DNA from: a virus
Virus record (IMG/VR): IMGVR_UViG_3300018080_000036
Span: 1-48,408 of that record
Length of the DNA: 48,408 bases
Strand: one strand, 5' to 3'
Below, piece by piece: positions 3,036 through 41,470 of this stretch. Numbering within the stretch: position 1 is the first letter of the stretch; each line of letters opens with the position of its first letter. Under the pieces are notes generated by a model. It worked only from the letters and a program-made list of their open reading frames with translations, ran no database searches and was not told where the DNA came from. Both the position numbers and the translations under genes were made by a program.

Positions 3036-3611
3036 TCAACCTCTCATAATTTGTGTAATGGTCTTAAAGCCTCTATTGTTATCCTCAATAATTTCCCCAG
3101 ATATTTCTATAGCCTCCCTTTTAGCCTGACTTCTTCTTTCCTCTCTAATCTTCTCAGCTCTACTATGAACTTCTCTAAGAAAATCAGCATCAACTTTAGT
3201 TTCCCTTTTATCAATTTCAAGTTTAGCCTTAGGCTTACCCAAAGCTCTATCAACCATAGTTTGAGCATGACCTAATTTAACTACCATAGGAACCTTATCA
3301 GTATCATCTTCCAATAAGGCCTTCTCAATCACATCCAAAGAAAGTTCACCAATAGCATTAATTCTTTCCTGCATCAGAGCCGCATCATCATCCCTTAAGG
3401 CTTGCAACCTTCCTAGCTCTTGTCTTCCTAACTCAGACCCCAGTACATTATATACAGTCTGTGGCTCTATCTCCAAGGCTACTGCTATTTCCTTAGGCTT
3501 ATAAGCTAAATTAGCTAGTCTTATAATTTCCTTATGTATAAAACTCAATCTAGCTAAACTATAACAGCTATTAACAACCCTATTACCTTCCATGTCCTCT
3601 ATATAAGGCAT
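3036..3611 (-). CDS. Probable small terminase subunit (HTH protein)
   Basis: This is the first gene of the leftward late operon, 50 bases below the predicted start point of a near-consensus promoter. The 191-aa protein has a helix-turn-helix at residues 38-60 (KPKEIAVALEIEPQTVYNVL). Long charged helices likely to form coiled coils follow, with a Lys/Arg/Glu-rich tail. This is the layout of phage small terminase subunits: a DNA-binding head, an oligomerisation helix and a tail that contacts TerL. The large subunit lies far downstream in the same transcription direction (38545-40140), with the secreted proteins and lysis genes between, which is unusual. A late transcription regulator is the main alternative. 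The start has GGAGTTTAGATA before ATG. Confidence 0.6.
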   Translation of the reverse strand: MPYIEDMEGNRVVNSCYSLARLSFIHKEIIRLANLAYKPKEIAVALEIEPQTVYNVLGSELGRQELGRLQALRDDDAALMQERINAIGELSLDVIEKALLEDDTDKVPMVVKLGHAQTMVDRALGKPKAKLEIDKRETKVDADFLREVHSRAEKIREERRSQAKREAIEISGEIIEDNNRGFKTITQIMRG

Positions 3612-3660
3612 TATCTAAACTCCAGTATCCAAATTCAACTTGTATATTCAAACTAAATCA

Positions 3661-3696
3661 TAATTGTAATATAACTATATACCCTCCCATTGTCAA
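3661..3696 (-). promoter_or_regulatory. Leftward late promoter (sigma-70 type)
   Basis: On the minus strand TTGACA (3696-3691) is followed by exactly 17 bases and TATATT (3673-3668): a perfect -35 and a five-of-six -10 with optimal spacing. Transcription would start near 3661 and give a leader of about 50 nt before the TerS-like gene, with a GGAG ribosome site. It is the strongest promoter I can find in the window and implies that host RNA polymerase reads the late arm. Confidence 0.8.
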
Positions 3697-3820
3697 GTGT
3701 TTTCTGCTCAAATTATCCCCTCCATAACCCAATAAAATCCAACAGCTTACCCCAACCAATCAACACAAAAATCCAACAGGCTCCAACAAAATCCCCTACC
3801 ACCAACCAATCCGAATTCAA

Positions 3821-3841
3821 CTTGTATAAAATATATACAAG
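3821..3841. repeat. Palindromic element copy 1 (divergent region)
   Basis: The core TTGTATAAAATATATACAA has 7-bp inverted arms (TTGTATA/TATACAA) around AAATA, flanked by C and G. It is one of seven near-identical intergenic copies. This copy sits between the late promoter and the iterons, about 210 bases upstream of the first leftward gene. Confidence 0.9.
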
Positions 3842-4040
3842 ATCCTCTACTATACTATTCCATAGGTTGTTGATAATATTGAAAATTTTACTCGCGGAAT
3901 GTGAAAACCTTTGTATCCTAGAGCTCAGCACACAAAATCCCCTATGGGACTCTTTATAGATTTGATGGGATTAGTAAAGTTTTTATTGTAATGGGTTAGT
4001 ATGGAATTGGTTGGTGGATTAGTGTTAGGTTAATAATGAC

Positions 4041-4096
4041 CTGTCGTATTTTGCGATAGTACTGTCGTATTTTGCTTGATGAGTGTAGTATTTTGC
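4041..4096. repeat. Three 14-bp iterons at exact 21-bp spacing
   Basis: CTGTCGTATTTTGC occurs at 4041-4054 and 4062-4075. A third copy with two changes, GTGTAGTATTTTGC, occurs at 4083-4096. The period of 21 bp equals two helical turns, so bound proteins would line up on one face of the helix. A -10-like TATAAG follows at 4110-4115, which places the third repeat over the -35 region of a possible rightward promoter. The array could be an operator for the early promoter or initiator-binding iterons of an origin. Confidence 0.8.
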
Positions 4097-4265
4097 GGCA
4101 GTTTATTAATATAAGCATATAGTTTGGGTTAATGGTAAGATGTTGTTTATTGTCAGGTTGGAGGGTTGGTCGATACTTTGGTATGATTGTTGCCTACTGT
4201 TATGGTGGATTTGGGTAAGTGACCCAATGCTCTTTGATAACTTTTATTAACTAATGGAGGACGTT

Positions 4266-4763
4266 ATGTCTGATGAAAAAACTTTGTCGATGGCTGACTT
4301 AACTATGATGTTTGGAGATGATGTTAAACTGGCTATCACTAGAACTTGTTTTGGGGCTGAGAGACAAGATGGAAAAGTGATTAAAACCATGTCAGAAGTT
4401 GAGAAGGAATGTAAAGCCTTGAAAGATACCAACAAGGCTTTATACCAAGAAGAGATAGCTAAAAGAACAAAGACCTTTAATTTCGATTTCGACGGTGTTA
4501 GTGTTAAAGAACTTCTTGAAAGACACGCCACTAGTACGACAATCTTTAAAAAGTTCTATAATGATAACCTTTTCAATGCTGATGATAATGAAATACTTAA
4601 GTTACCAAAGATGGTTAATGTTAAGGTTAAGGAATTATTGATCAGCCGCGCTGTAACGGCTGATCCAAACAAAGCACGGACAAAGGCTATTCAAGCAAAT
4701 CTGAAAGCTGGATTAACTCCAGAGCAGATTCTTGAGCATTTCAAGAAGGATTTAGGGTTGTAG
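4266..4763 (+). CDS. Unknown 165-aa protein, first rightward gene, monocistronic
   Basis: I do not recognise the family. The protein is mostly helical and mixed in charge. It has MFGDDVKLAI near the N-terminus, FNFDFDGVSVKELL in the middle and a C-terminal helix-rich segment (ANLKAGLTPEQILEHF) that could be an HTH-like or oligomerisation element. GGAGG lies five bases before the ATG at 4266; an in-frame ATG at 4254 overlaps that site and is unlikely. The gene stands alone between the iterons and a strong terminator, and its codons look more mixed than those of its neighbours, which suggests strong early expression. It is a candidate iteron-binding protein, but this is inferred from position only. 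Confidence 0.75.
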   Translation: MSDEKTLSMADLTMMFGDDVKLAITRTCFGAERQDGKVIKTMSEVEKECKALKDTNKALYQEEIAKRTKTFNFDFDGVSVKELLERHATSTTIFKKFYNDNLFNADDNEILKLPKMVNVKVKELLISRAVTADPNKARTKAIQANLKAGLTPEQILEHFKKDLGL

Positions 4764-4782
4764 TTCTATTGGTTGTTAATTG

Positions 4783-4814
4783 AAGCCTGATTATTAATTT
4801 AGTCAGGCTTTTTT
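4783..4814 (+). terminator. Intrinsic terminator after the first rightward gene
   Basis: AAGCCTGA (4783-4790) and TCAGGCTT (4803-4810) form a perfect 8-bp stem with a 12-nt loop, followed by six T. It isolates the 165-aa gene from the downstream operon. Confidence 0.9.
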
Positions 4815-4844
4815 ATTTATTTGTATTGACTTTTTGTACAACAA

Positions 4845-4874
4845 AAATGTATTTGTGGTAACACCCCACCTTTC
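4845..4874 (+). repeat. Inverted repeat, left arm (30 bp)
   Basis: Its reverse complement matches 5108-5137 at 26 of 30 positions, including an uninterrupted 13-base block (CACAAATACATTT) and an 8-base block (TGGGGTGT). The arms point at each other across about 230 bases of A/T sequence. Confidence 0.85.
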
Positions 4875-5107
4875 AAATTTTTCAATGATAAACACCTATA
4901 TAATAGTTAGCCTACTATAGTTATATCGTATAATAAAAAAAATATATATAAATAGAATATATATAATAATATAGGATGATGATAATAATAACCTTTATAA
5001 TATTAATGCCTTTTACATTAATGTCATAGGTTTTTGTGTTACTTTCTATTAAAAAAATATATTACTATAATATATATAATACACTATTGTATTTATGGCG
5101 ATTGGGG

Positions 5108-5137
5108 GGAAGATGGGGTGTGATCACAAATACATTT
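5108..5137 (-). repeat. Inverted repeat, right arm (30 bp)
   Basis: This is the partner of 4845-4874 (26 of 30 identities in inverted orientation). Its centre carries the perfect palindrome TGTGATCACA, whereas the left arm has TGGTAACA at the same place. Two diverged copies of one binding site or the feet of a long stem are both possible. Confidence 0.85.
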
Positions 5138-5169
5138 GATTGATACATTAATTGTATTAACATTGGGTA

Positions 5170-5198
5170 TTGACTTTTTGATATTATATTCATACATT
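5170..5198 (+). promoter_or_regulatory. Candidate rightward early promoter
   Basis: TTGACT (5170-5175), a 17-base spacer and TACATT (5193-5198) match a sigma-70 promoter at five and four positions. The same -10 (TACATT) and spacing recur at 8982-9010. It lies about 90 bases upstream of the gene at 5286, with an inverted repeat in the leader. Confidence 0.5.
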
Positions 5199-5285
5199 TA
5201 TTATCATCATTAATAATCACAATAATAATAATAATGATAATAACCCAGATTTTATTTAACAAGTCAAAAGGAGGTGAAATTAATT

Positions 5286-6462: not shown

Positions 6463-6501
6463 AAAAAGTGGCTTGTATAAAATATATACAAGTCGCTTTT
6501 T
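6463..6501. terminator. Hairpin terminator built around palindromic element copy 2
   Basis: The conserved element (6472-6492) is extended here on both sides into a 17-pair RNA stem with two G-U pairs (6463-6479 with 6485-6501). It ends in a T-run on the + strand and begins with an A-run, so it could terminate transcription from either side. It closes the operon ending at 6460 and lies 33 bases before the next start (element end to ATG 6526). Confidence 0.75.
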
Positions 6502-6525: not shown

Positions 6526-7221
6526 ATGATAGACACTAACTTTAATAAGGACTTTCTAAGAGAGTCAAAGCAAACGGCGATAGAAAATGGAGTCTTGGTT
6601 AATCCAACTAAGCTAAGAACAATGCCAATTAATGCTAGGGTAAAGATAGAGGATTTTGCTGTAGTAATATCAGCAATACTTAAATACGATCCTGATACCA
6701 TACCCACCAAGTCATCAGTTGTACATAATGCTTTACACTTCTTGGCTGAATACTTAATTAACAATAGAATAGTTGAACCTTTTCAAGAGGTTGGTAGAGC
6801 TTTGTCTTATCTGGACTCTTTAGGAATTAAGCTAAACCAGCGATCCCTTCCGTCTGGTAATAAAGCTGGGTCTAAGAGTTTATTCAATAGATTAGCTATT
6901 GAAGATAAACAAAAGGAGGCCTTAGTAAATCAGCTAGACCAAGAGGATAAAAAGAATATCTTCGAGTTTATTAGCTATATAGAGAGAATATCTATAGAAG
7001 CATATAATTTACTTAGTAAATTATCAGACAACTCTTTTAATTATCTGCTAGCATCTTGGACAAATAAAGCTAAACTACCAAAAGGAGTAGATAACAAGTG
7101 GTGGTTAAAGCAGATAAAGACTTTCTATGAAATGGAGATTGACAAAACTAGTTTATCTAATCAAGGTAACGCTATAAGAGCTTATGAAGTTTATAAAAAT
7201 AGAAAGGAGTTGGACAAATGA
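6526..7221 (+). CDS. Unknown 231-aa protein
   Basis: No family recognised. The sequence is helical, with a central hydrophobic region (HNALHFLAEYLI) and a Lys/Asn-rich C-terminus containing two adjacent Trp. AGAGGTG lies about eight bases before the ATG. The gene opens a new cistron group just after the hairpin at 6463-6501 and overlaps the next gene by four bases (ATGA), so the two are translationally coupled and may form a complex. Confidence 0.75.
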   Translation: MIDTNFNKDFLRESKQTAIENGVLVNPTKLRTMPINARVKIEDFAVVISAILKYDPDTIPTKSSVVHNALHFLAEYLINNRIVEPFQEVGRALSYLDSLGIKLNQRSLPSGNKAGSKSLFNRLAIEDKQKEALVNQLDQEDKKNIFEFISYIERISIEAYNLLSKLSDNSFNYLLASWTNKAKLPKGVDNKWWLKQIKTFYEMEIDKTSLSNQGNAIRAYEVYKNRKELDK

Positions 7222-8592: not shown

Positions 8593-8621
8593 CATCTTGT
8601 ATAAAATATATACAAGATGCT
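8591..8621. repeat. Palindromic element copy 3 with extended 13-bp arms
   Basis: The conserved element (8596-8616) is extended to a perfect inverted repeat with 13-bp arms (AGCATCTTGTATA and its complement) around AAATA. It begins two bases before the methyltransferase stop codon is completed at 8592 and lies 31 bases before the next ATG (8648). A 26-bp block from 8598 is identical to copy 6 at 32328. No T-run follows, so it is not a standard terminator. Confidence 0.9.
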
Positions 8622-13609: not shown

Positions 13610-13630
13610 CTTGTATATATTTTATACATG
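13610..13630. repeat. Palindromic element copy 4, inverted, next to the recombinase start
   Basis: The element reads TTGTATATATTTTATACAT on the + strand, the reverse orientation of copies 1-3. It ends 12 bases before the ATG at 13643, directly against the AGAGGAG ribosome site. Copies 6 and 7 have the same orientation relative to their gene and nearly the same gap. Confidence 0.9.
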
Positions 13631-15847: not shown

Positions 15848-16120
15848 ATGAAATTAGAGAATTTAAATAAATCAATAACTCAACTAACTACTGAAGAACA
15901 ACTACAATTAGTACAAAAGATTAGGGAATCTAGACTTAGAGTAAAGGCAGTATATAAGGCTTCTAACAAGAAGAAGACTAAAAAGATAATCAAACCTAAG
16001 ACTACCACAAAGAGAAAACAAAAAAAAGTAAAAAGTAAAGAGGACTTAATGTATCTAATATCCAAGATGGAGGAAATGGTAAATGAGCAAAGAACAAATC
16101 AACCATCAGGCAGTAACTGA
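15848..16120 (+). CDS. Small highly basic protein (90 aa)
   Basis: The middle third is a Lys/Arg/Thr-rich tract (SNKKKTKKIIKPKTTTKRK) between two helical ends with Leu/Ile spacing. It probably binds nucleic acid electrostatically or is a linker-type accessory. It starts shortly after the terminator with AGAGGT before the ATG, and its end overlaps the ParB-methyltransferase gene by 38 bases, so the two are co-expressed. Confidence 0.68.
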   Translation: MKLENLNKSITQLTTEEQLQLVQKIRESRLRVKAVYKASNKKKTKKIIKPKTTTKRKQKKVKSKEDLMYLISKMEEMVNEQRTNQPSGSN

Positions 16121-17540
16121 GGTACCAGAATTTAATAAGATAGCAGTTCCTAGTAAGTTGGCTAGAATAGCTATAAAGGACATCAACCCTGGTAGACGTG
16201 TTAGAGGCTCTTACGCAGGTACTAAAAAGGACTGGGATGATTTTAAGCAATCTCTAAAGGAAGAGGGTCAGATACAACCAATAACTGTTATGGAATATGA
16301 TACTCCGTTTGAGGATTTTAGATATTTTTTACTATGTGGGGGTCGTAGGATTAAGGCTCTTAAAGAACTAGAGGAAACTCAAGTAGATGCAAAGATATAT
16401 CCTCATGGACTTAACGCCTATGAGCTTAAAGCTATTGAATTATCAGAGAACCTTCATCGTAAAGATCTTACAGTAGACGAGAAAGCAGAAGCCCATAAAG
16501 ATATGTATGATTATTACATTAGTCTATATGGTAAAAAGGAGAGTACCTCTCCAAACGCCCCAGGATTATCCATCAGAGATGTAGCAAAGAAGATGAAGCT
16601 GGATAAGATGACCTTAATAAACAGTTTGAAAATAGCTAAAATATTTGAGGATGTTCCTGAGGCTAAGGGAAAGATTAAAACAGATGCGGAAGCTTTATCT
16701 TTGCTCAAAAGGGCAGAGAAAACAGTAAGAATAGAAAAAGAATCAAAAGAAGCTCGTGAGAAGTTAACTAATTCTACTGAGGATAGAGCTAAAGAAACCA
16801 TTATGGGAAGTTATATAGTAAACGAAGGTGGGTTTTTAGCTTACGCTAAATCTCTAAAGGATGAGTCCTTTGACCTTTGTAACTTTGATCCAGATTACCC
16901 TAATGCTTCAAAAGACTTCGGTGGACAGCACACCTCCTCAGTTACCTCAATTACCTTAGGTCATTATAGCACTATAAATCCAGAGAACTTCGAGGGATTT
17001 TTTAAATCCTGTCTTAAGGAAATCTATAGAATACTAAGACCAAATTCCTGGTTAATAGTATGGTTTGGCTATGAATACTTTCAGAGAATCTTAGACTGGG
17101 CTAAAGAGACCAAGTTTGAGGTGCACTATAATCACGGTAAGTGGCTGAAGATTAGTAAAGCGGAGTTTGTTGTAAGTCATACTAGAAACCCACATAGATT
17201 TCTGGGACACTCCATAGAACCTTTCTTCTACTTTAAAAAAGGTTCTGCCACTATCCAGAAACCTCACCACGATACCTATATGCACCTACCAGATCCTCCA
17301 AATAAAAGGATAAACCAATACCAAAAGCCTATCCAACTCATGCAGGAAATATATGACACCTTCTTATTACCAGCACAGAGGATTATATCTCCATGCACTG
17401 GTAGTGGATGTGATATATTAGCTGCTATTAACACTGGTAGATTCGCTGTTGGATGTGATACATCTAAAACTCAAAAAGAAGCCTTCAAGCATAGAGTATT
17501 AACTCAACCGATAGCTCAGTATAAATCTTGGGAGCAATAA
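16083..17540 (+). CDS. ParB-like domain fused to a DNA methyltransferase
   Basis: The 485-aa protein has an N-terminal ParB/Srx module: CGGRRIKALKEL (85-96), ENLHRKDLT (122-130) and an HTH (162-183, SIRDVAKKMKLDKMTLINSL). Residues 240-470 are a DNA amino-methyltransferase with motif IV DPDY (269-272, a variant of DPPY), HSIEPFFYFKK (376-386), KPIQLM (415-420) and motif I SPCTGSG (436-442). The motif order IV to I is that of beta-class enzymes. The ParB part could bring the methylase to DNA sites; protection against host restriction is the likely role. Activity of the variant motifs is uncertain. TGGAGG is nine bases before the ATG. ParB-MTase fusions occur in other phages and plasmids. Confidence 0.85.
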   Translation: MSKEQINHQAVTEVPEFNKIAVPSKLARIAIKDINPGRRVRGSYAGTKKDWDDFKQSLKEEGQIQPITVMEYDTPFEDFRYFLLCGGRRIKALKELEETQVDAKIYPHGLNAYELKAIELSENLHRKDLTVDEKAEAHKDMYDYYISLYGKKESTSPNAPGLSIRDVAKKMKLDKMTLINSLKIAKIFEDVPEAKGKIKTDAEALSLLKRAEKTVRIEKESKEAREKLTNSTEDRAKETIMGSYIVNEGGFLAYAKSLKDESFDLCNFDPDYPNASKDFGGQHTSSVTSITLGHYSTINPENFEGFFKSCLKEIYRILRPNSWLIVWFGYEYFQRILDWAKETKFEVHYNHGKWLKISKAEFVVSHTRNPHRFLGHSIEPFFYFKKGSATIQKPHHDTYMHLPDPPNKRINQYQKPIQLMQEIYDTFLLPAQRIISPCTGSGCDILAAINTGRFAVGCDTSKTQKEAFKHRVLTQPIAQYKSWEQ

Positions 17541-22689: not shown

Positions 22690-22710
22690 CATGTATAAAA
22701 TATATACAAG
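22690..22710. repeat. Palindromic element copy 5 (between converging arms)
   Basis: The core TGTATAAAATATATACAAG abuts the terminator hairpin with no gap. It lies downstream of both transcription arms, so at this place it cannot be a promoter or translation operator for a nearby gene. That argues for a role at the DNA level or in RNA ends. Confidence 0.9.
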
Positions 22711-32325: not shown

Positions 32326-32346
32326 CCTGTATAAAATATATACAAG
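32326..32346. repeat. Palindromic element copy 6 (capsid/tail boundary)
   Basis: This is the conserved 21-mer with one change (CCTG for CTTG at the left). It lies 12 bases upstream of the tail-tube gene start in the leftward direction and three bases after the capsid hairpin. It shares a 26-bp identical block with copy 3, which includes the flank GATGCTGG. Confidence 0.9.
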
Positions 32347-35105: not shown

Positions 35106-35954
35106 TTATTCCATTAAGTCCAATATTTCCTTCTGAGTATTACTCAGATCATTTTTGTTAACTGTTTTAGTTTCACCAGCCCTTCCTCTCGGAGAGGGTG
35201 CAAAGTTGCTATTTTTTTCTATCTTCTTTCCAGTAAGAGCTTCTACAGCCCTTCGAACCTCCTTTCCAGTCTCAGCTAAAACTTGATCTGGAGTCCAATC
35301 CGGATGAACTCCTTGTACTTTAGTCGCTTGAATCTTTACTACATTTGAAATAGGAATTAAATCCTTATTATCTTTCCAAAAGTCTCTAGCAGCTGTATAA
35401 GTTGACACAGTTCTATTTACGTTCTTAGACACTCCCTGTAATAAGCCATCCATCTGAGACTTTACATCAGCCTGTATATCAGCTCTAGCTCTATCATAAA
35501 CTTCCTTAGCTACACCCTTAAGAACATTAACAAAAGCCTCTCTACTTTGATTAGCCTCCACGAAATCTTCCTCAGTTATAGAAAAGTTAAACTCTGTGAC
35601 CTTATCCTTAGGCTCTTCTTTTTTAGGTTCTTCTTTCTTAGACTCTTCTTTTTCAATCTCCTCTTTCACAGGCTCTACTGGAGCACCACCAAAAAGATTA
35701 TTAAGTTCCTTGAAGATGTCAGGCTCTTCTTTATCTTTAGGTTCTTCCCTTTTACCCTCTACCTCTTTAGGCTTTTCCTCTTTAGGTTTTTCTTCTTTTA
35801 TTGCTTCTTTGTCTTTAGGTTCTGGTTCTTTAACCTTATCATCTTTAACCTCCTTCAAGCCATCATCAAGCATTGATGCTACATCCTCAGCTATTGAAGT
35901 ACCACTATTAGAACCATCTTCAGGTGCATAAAAAATTTGTTCAGTCTTAAACAT
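35106..35954 (-). CDS. Scaffolding protein
   Basis: The 282-aa protein has a Lys/Glu/Pro-rich low-complexity segment from about residue 25 to 115 (EEKPKEEKPKEVEGK type) and a helical second half with coiled-coil spacing. It ends in a Lys/Arg-rich C-terminus (GRAGETKTVNKNDL), the part that would contact the capsid. Size, charge and position between the portal and capsid genes fit an assembly scaffold. GAGGAG lies seven bases before the ATG at 35954; the in-frame ATG at 35969 overlaps that site and is not used. Confidence 0.75.
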   Translation of the reverse strand: MFKTEQIFYAPEDGSNSGTSIAEDVASMLDDGLKEVKDDKVKEPEPKDKEAIKEEKPKEEKPKEVEGKREEPKDKEEPDIFKELNNLFGGAPVEPVKEEIEKEESKKEEPKKEEPKDKVTEFNFSITEEDFVEANQSREAFVNVLKGVAKEVYDRARADIQADVKSQMDGLLQGVSKNVNRTVSTYTAARDFWKDNKDLIPISNVVKIQATKVQGVHPDWTPDQVLAETGKEVRRAVEALTGKKIEKNSNFAPSPRGRAGETKTVNKNDLSNTQKEILDLME

Positions 35955-41449: not shown

Positions 41450-41470
41450 CATGTATAAAATATATACAAG
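41450..41470. repeat. Palindromic element copy 7 (before the lysin gene)
   Basis: The core TGTATAAAATATATACAAG lies between the 1,106-aa beta-helix gene and the lysin gene, 13 bases before the lysin GTG. In the direction of transcription its orientation and distance match copies 4 and 6. A TTGAAT 17 bases before its TATATA on the minus strand could make a weak promoter. Confidence 0.9.

Follow-up and report, generated by a model that had tools for sequence, protein, structure and literature searches.

Closest described counterparts

The closest described counterparts of the array considered here are activator sites, replication iterons and packaging sites. The sites of AraC/XylS-type regulators (araI1-I2, and XylS at Pm) are direct rather than inverted repeats lying about two helical turns apart, and their proximal repeat falls at -35 in a promoter with no good -35 element of its own; for XylS, the distance from repeat to repeat is 21 bp. 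XylS binds a pair of 15-bp direct repeats that overlap the RNA polymerase site (PMC5481539). Iterons or direct repeats lie beside the rep gene in P1-type and mycobacterial prophage origins (PMC7157519). Such iterons, as in P1 RepA and the mycobacterial RepA prophages, are direct units of 14-21 bp that line up along a single face of the helix, with an AT-rich tract close by. In phage lambda, the cosB sites R3, R2 and R1 lie near the terS gene at irregular intervals about a bend made by IHF. Each of these three cosB sites is bound by the small terminase TerS (PMC4856287).

Genome setting

The window, by which we mean the whole analysed stretch of 48,408 nt, is a metagenomic contig (IMG/VR virus record; 36% G+C) from a tailed phage whose two divergent arms separate at 3612-4265. 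Structural and terminase genes make up the left arm, while the right arm holds replication genes for an exonuclease, a Dda-like helicase, a Sak4-like protein, a ParB_N-methyltransferase, a DNA polymerase and a primase. In the methyltransferase gene (16083-17540), a ParB N-terminal domain is fused to an N6/N4 DNA methyltransferase, an arrangement conserved in the Desulfofustis phage OP947158.

The first left-arm gene (3036-3611, leftward) encodes a small terminase subunit (phrog_2538, E 5e-5) with an N-terminal NarL/LuxR-type HTH. A profile of 24 relatives matches 7joq, a small terminase of solved structure (E 4e-10); the N-terminal part of the same profile matches a NarL-type HTH (E 4e-7). A strong leftward sigma-70 promoter-like sequence, TTGACA-17-TATATT (11/12), was located at this gene by promoter scan (3668-3696, minus strand). 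The right arm opens with an isolated rightward gene (4266-4763), preceded on direct reading by a GGAGG ribosome-binding site (4256-4260, plus strand), whose 165-aa product belongs to no known family. No DNA-binding fold was recognised in this product, for which the AlphaFold model is uninformative (mean pLDDT 53), and single-protein viral scans with it, with the 166-2631 protein and with the small terminase found no relatives. To the right of this orphan gene lies an AT-rich intergenic stretch (4764-5285; 23% G+C overall and 15% at 4901-5000), a candidate unwinding or promoter region. It is flanked by a 28-nt inverted repeat (89%; 4845-4872 and 5110-5137), itself a candidate origin element.

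A phased repeat array in the divergent region

Three direct repeats lie on the plus strand between the small-terminase gene and the orphan gene. Sites 1 and 2 both read CTGTCGTATTTTGC (4041-4054 and 4062-4075), and site 3 reads GTGTAGTATTTTGC, with two mismatches (4083-4096). Direct reading of the sequence thus bears out the exact pair and diverged third copy described in the first-pass annotation, together with its strict period, the two intervals being 21 and 21 bp. No fourth copy was found on either side, where the best-placed positions match at 6/14 upstream and 4/14 downstream. The core GTATTTTGC occurs exactly in all three sites and nowhere else in the 48-kb window, and this confinement to one locus speaks against a promoter or operator word used throughout the genome.

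The three copies could also be due to chance, or be a neutral, functionless remnant of a small tandem duplication, which would fit both their low number and the lack of conservation in relatives described below. However, a comparable triple was found in 0/500 dinucleotide shuffles of the divergent region (3612-4265, 654 bp), as was any exact 14-mer pair (0/500), and a three-copy array of this quality at any period from 12 to 60 arose in 0/30 dinucleotide shuffles of the whole window. Over the same range of periods, the unshuffled window yields the 21-bp array and one 15-bp array near 35608. The constraint is also unevenly distributed, since the 14-bp cores agree at 38/42 pairwise positions and the 7-bp spacers, at 7/21, have diverged to background identity (Fisher p=5e-6). 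A recent tandem duplication would retain its spacers, whereas between discrete sites kept at constant spacing they would be lost; discrete phased sites are therefore favoured, and we regard a chance or neutral origin as distinctly improbable.

Several other identities for the repeats were rejected. A repeat encoding a heptapeptide is ruled out because all frames across the array are stopped or have no usable start. For an RNA element, Rfam gave no match above noise, and the single-strand DNA fold has a z of -0.7. A PhoB box (CTGTCAT) is ruled out by the unit spacing, which is 21 rather than 11 or 22, and by the absence of the second half-site.

The cores are conserved and the spacers are not, the period is strict, and the array occupies one locus in a divergent control region; taken together, these features make the interpretation of the three repeats as an array of phased protein-binding sites well supported. 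Judged on its sequence, the array is a genuine and well-formed example of a familiar type of control element. The first-pass annotation had proposed a cooperative operator or an initiator-binding array; the phased binding-site array stands, and operator and initiator array are both candidate readings of it.

A separate 21-bp dyad, CTTGTATAAAATATATACAAG, occurs seven times in the window with 0-1 mismatch in its arms (3821-3841, 6472-6492, 8596-8616, 13610-13630, 22690-22710, 32326-32346 and 41450-41470). All seven copies are intergenic, being spread over both genome arms and the convergent junction, and no shuffle reached seven copies at up to 3 mismatches. Their orientation does not track the direction of the genes, and this favours a symmetric operator or a stoperator-like element over a promoter. 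A half copy lies by the leftward promoter (3639-3646).

A possible rightward promoter and a putative activator

Downstream of the array lies TATAAG (4110-4115, plus strand). Its position is as first annotated; as a -10 box it does not exceed chance, a 5/6 match to TATAAT being expected in such AT-rich DNA (about 0.25 over 17 positions by our estimate), and no -35 consensus is found 15-19 bp away. The -35 element for this box would sit at 4087-4092, inside site 3. No right-facing sigma-70 promoter above chance was found in 3612-4265, where the best candidate scores 8.1 of 10.5 (p 0.51). By comparison, nine of the 18 relatives with a bounded region (L101, L117, L131, L132, L135, L145, L151, L153 and L154) carry a right-facing sigma-70 promoter scoring at least 9.2 of 10.5.

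Our best explanation, to which we give an even chance, is that the array is a phased operator, presumably an activating one, which serves a rightward promoter ahead of the orphan gene. A phage or host DNA-binding protein would occupy the three sites on one helix face, probably cooperatively, and site 3 would coincide with -35 in a promoter offering nothing beyond the -10-like TATAAG. The bound protein may then hold RNA polymerase there, in the manner of direct-repeat activators of the AraC/XylS type, or it may occlude the polymerase. We infer the protein binding, its cooperativity, activation over repression and the use of TATAAG as a -10 box.

The locus resembles AraC/XylS targets in its direct repeats, which are set a whole number of helical turns apart, with the proximal site at the -35 position. 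It differs from them in having three sites and another sequence, and no AraC-family regulator was matched among the ~28 of ~50 phage proteins scanned (ten nearest by Pfam). With no gene for such a regulator among them, the likeness is one of working and not of membership. Further points count against this explanation: no regulator gene was identified, the -10-like box is not significant alone, motif and period are not conserved, and the association between an array and a missing promoter comes from two genomes.

Possible origin iterons or terminase sites

The same anatomy would suit a replication origin, in which a phage or host initiator would bind the repeats and open the AT-rich tract at 4764-5285. 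Three 14-bp direct repeats at 21-bp spacing, accompanied by an AT-rich element, are what iterons look like, and here the arms diverge and the GC skew flips, from -0.42 to +0.25, in the region of the array. This flip also tracks gene direction, however, and is therefore confounded as evidence for an origin. The AT-rich tract lies 670 bp off, past the orphan gene, and the copies are few compared with known iterons. No Rep/O/RepA initiator family was recognised for 4266-4763, its neighbours or the right arm; no exact DnaA box (TTWTNCACA) occurs in 3612-5285, and boxes with one mismatch are no more numerous in the window than chance predicts. Conserved iterons are also absent in relatives that have a homologous polymerase and primase. 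An origin thus appears unlikely.

A possibility not considered in the first-pass annotation is that the repeats are packaging-initiation sites, bound by the small terminase as lambda TerS binds R3, R2 and R1 of cosB. It gains from the adjacent gene, which starts 430 bp to the left of the array and encodes the HTH-bearing small terminase, and the small terminase borders the region in 25 relatives as well. One would expect such a target sequence to change along with its terminase, which would explain the absent conservation. Yet the array sits on the far side of the gap, closer to the right arm, its strict 21-bp period differs from cosB, and most of the 25 relatives with the same terminase have no array. 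No cosN-like site was found; the contig ends lie elsewhere and are uninformative on this point. We consider packaging sites a rather doubtful reading.

Comparison with relatives

No DNA-level relatives were found in the phage collection, and relatives were gathered by polymerase alignment, which gave 80 viral loci at 34-42% identity, with OP947158 at 35%. The small terminase could be placed in 25 fetched stretches and adjoins the divergent gap in all 25. Homologues of the orphan gene hold the same position in G004 (30%, E 2.5e-10) and in contig L160 (37% over 61-157, E 2e-14), and a match in G003 is weak (E 7e-5).

The first-pass annotation had proposed searching relatives for the same period, and a search of ~26 divergent regions showed neither period nor motif to be conserved, which is one half of what it had named as refuting its reading. 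The motif is absent in the 12 relatives checked, except that PP438425 has a single core well away from its gap, and the 21-bp period is absent from relatives' gaps, except for simple repeats (L145, L160) and a borderline case (L127). At the matching place, OP947158 has three copies of ATTRTTACCAGGATAAG at a 17-bp period, the third diverged at its end, and these too are confined to a single locus. A different three-copy array in the same place indicates that the type of element recurs, and not the period. The gap of G033 contains 42-bp repeats and that of G042 34-bp repeats, the latter largely simple sequence.

A search of all viral contigs for the paired core GTATTTTGC-N12-GTATTTTGC gave 8 matches, which are unrelated and were not taken as homology. 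Two of them, L010 and L011, are real 21-bp arrays in unrelated phages; such a collection must contain many arrays of this period, and finding two is expected by selection. In L010, a likely replication gene just before a DnaB-like helicase gene contains four 21-bp repeats with GTATTTTGC (6768-6839), which resemble lambda O iterons.

The gap of OP947158, like that of the window, has no strong right-facing sigma-70 promoter (8.0, p 0.5), and the array stops 140 bp short of the gene there and 169 bp short of it here. G033 and G042 have a repeat array plus a strong promoter; L160 and G004 have neither a strong rightward promoter nor a regular array. The pattern fits a putative regulatory array in which protein-assisted recruitment would replace a consensus promoter, in a small sample with two such genomes.

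Elements in the corresponding gaps

Other relatives carry a different element in this position. Upstream of the first right-arm gene, L160 (4806-4821), G004 (L099:2018-2033) and G047 (L153:4439-4454) each have a perfect parS (TGTTTCACGTGAAACA or TGTTCCACGTGAAACA); in G035 (L136:6749-6764) it falls within the small first ORF. The sites in all four are of host type (TGTTNCACGTGAAACA), and L160 has a second, imperfect one at ~4767. Two of the four parS-bearing relatives carry a homologue of the orphan gene. Among 37 records searched whole, three have parS once per genome, with 0.0008 expected in 0.6 Mb; none was found in the window itself. These sites suggest that the parS-bearing relatives may recruit host ParB, for which phi29 with Spo0J is a precedent. 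The gap of G003 (L162:640-1338) has six CACGTG palindromes in 698 bp. One of these lies inside the spacer of a TTGACT-17-TATATT promoter.

A tentative idea, and one we think unlikely as it stands, is that the control region before the first right-arm gene serves as a swap-in docking bay across the phage group. The order of small terminase, gap and isolated small gene would be kept while the cis-element is exchanged, being the 21-bp array here, the 17-bp array in the Desulfofustis phage, CACGTG in G003 and parS in four others. Each phage might thereby place its early control, its replication or its segregation under a DNA-binding protein of its own choice, host ParB being one of them.

Implications

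If the array does act as operator for the gene that opens the right arm, it would mark where this uncultured phage group starts its replication programme. The orphan gene and its homologues would then form an uncharacterised family, likely of early control or host-takeover genes. Across the relatives compared, the position is conserved and the docking sequence changes, and the sequences found there include the host partition site parS.
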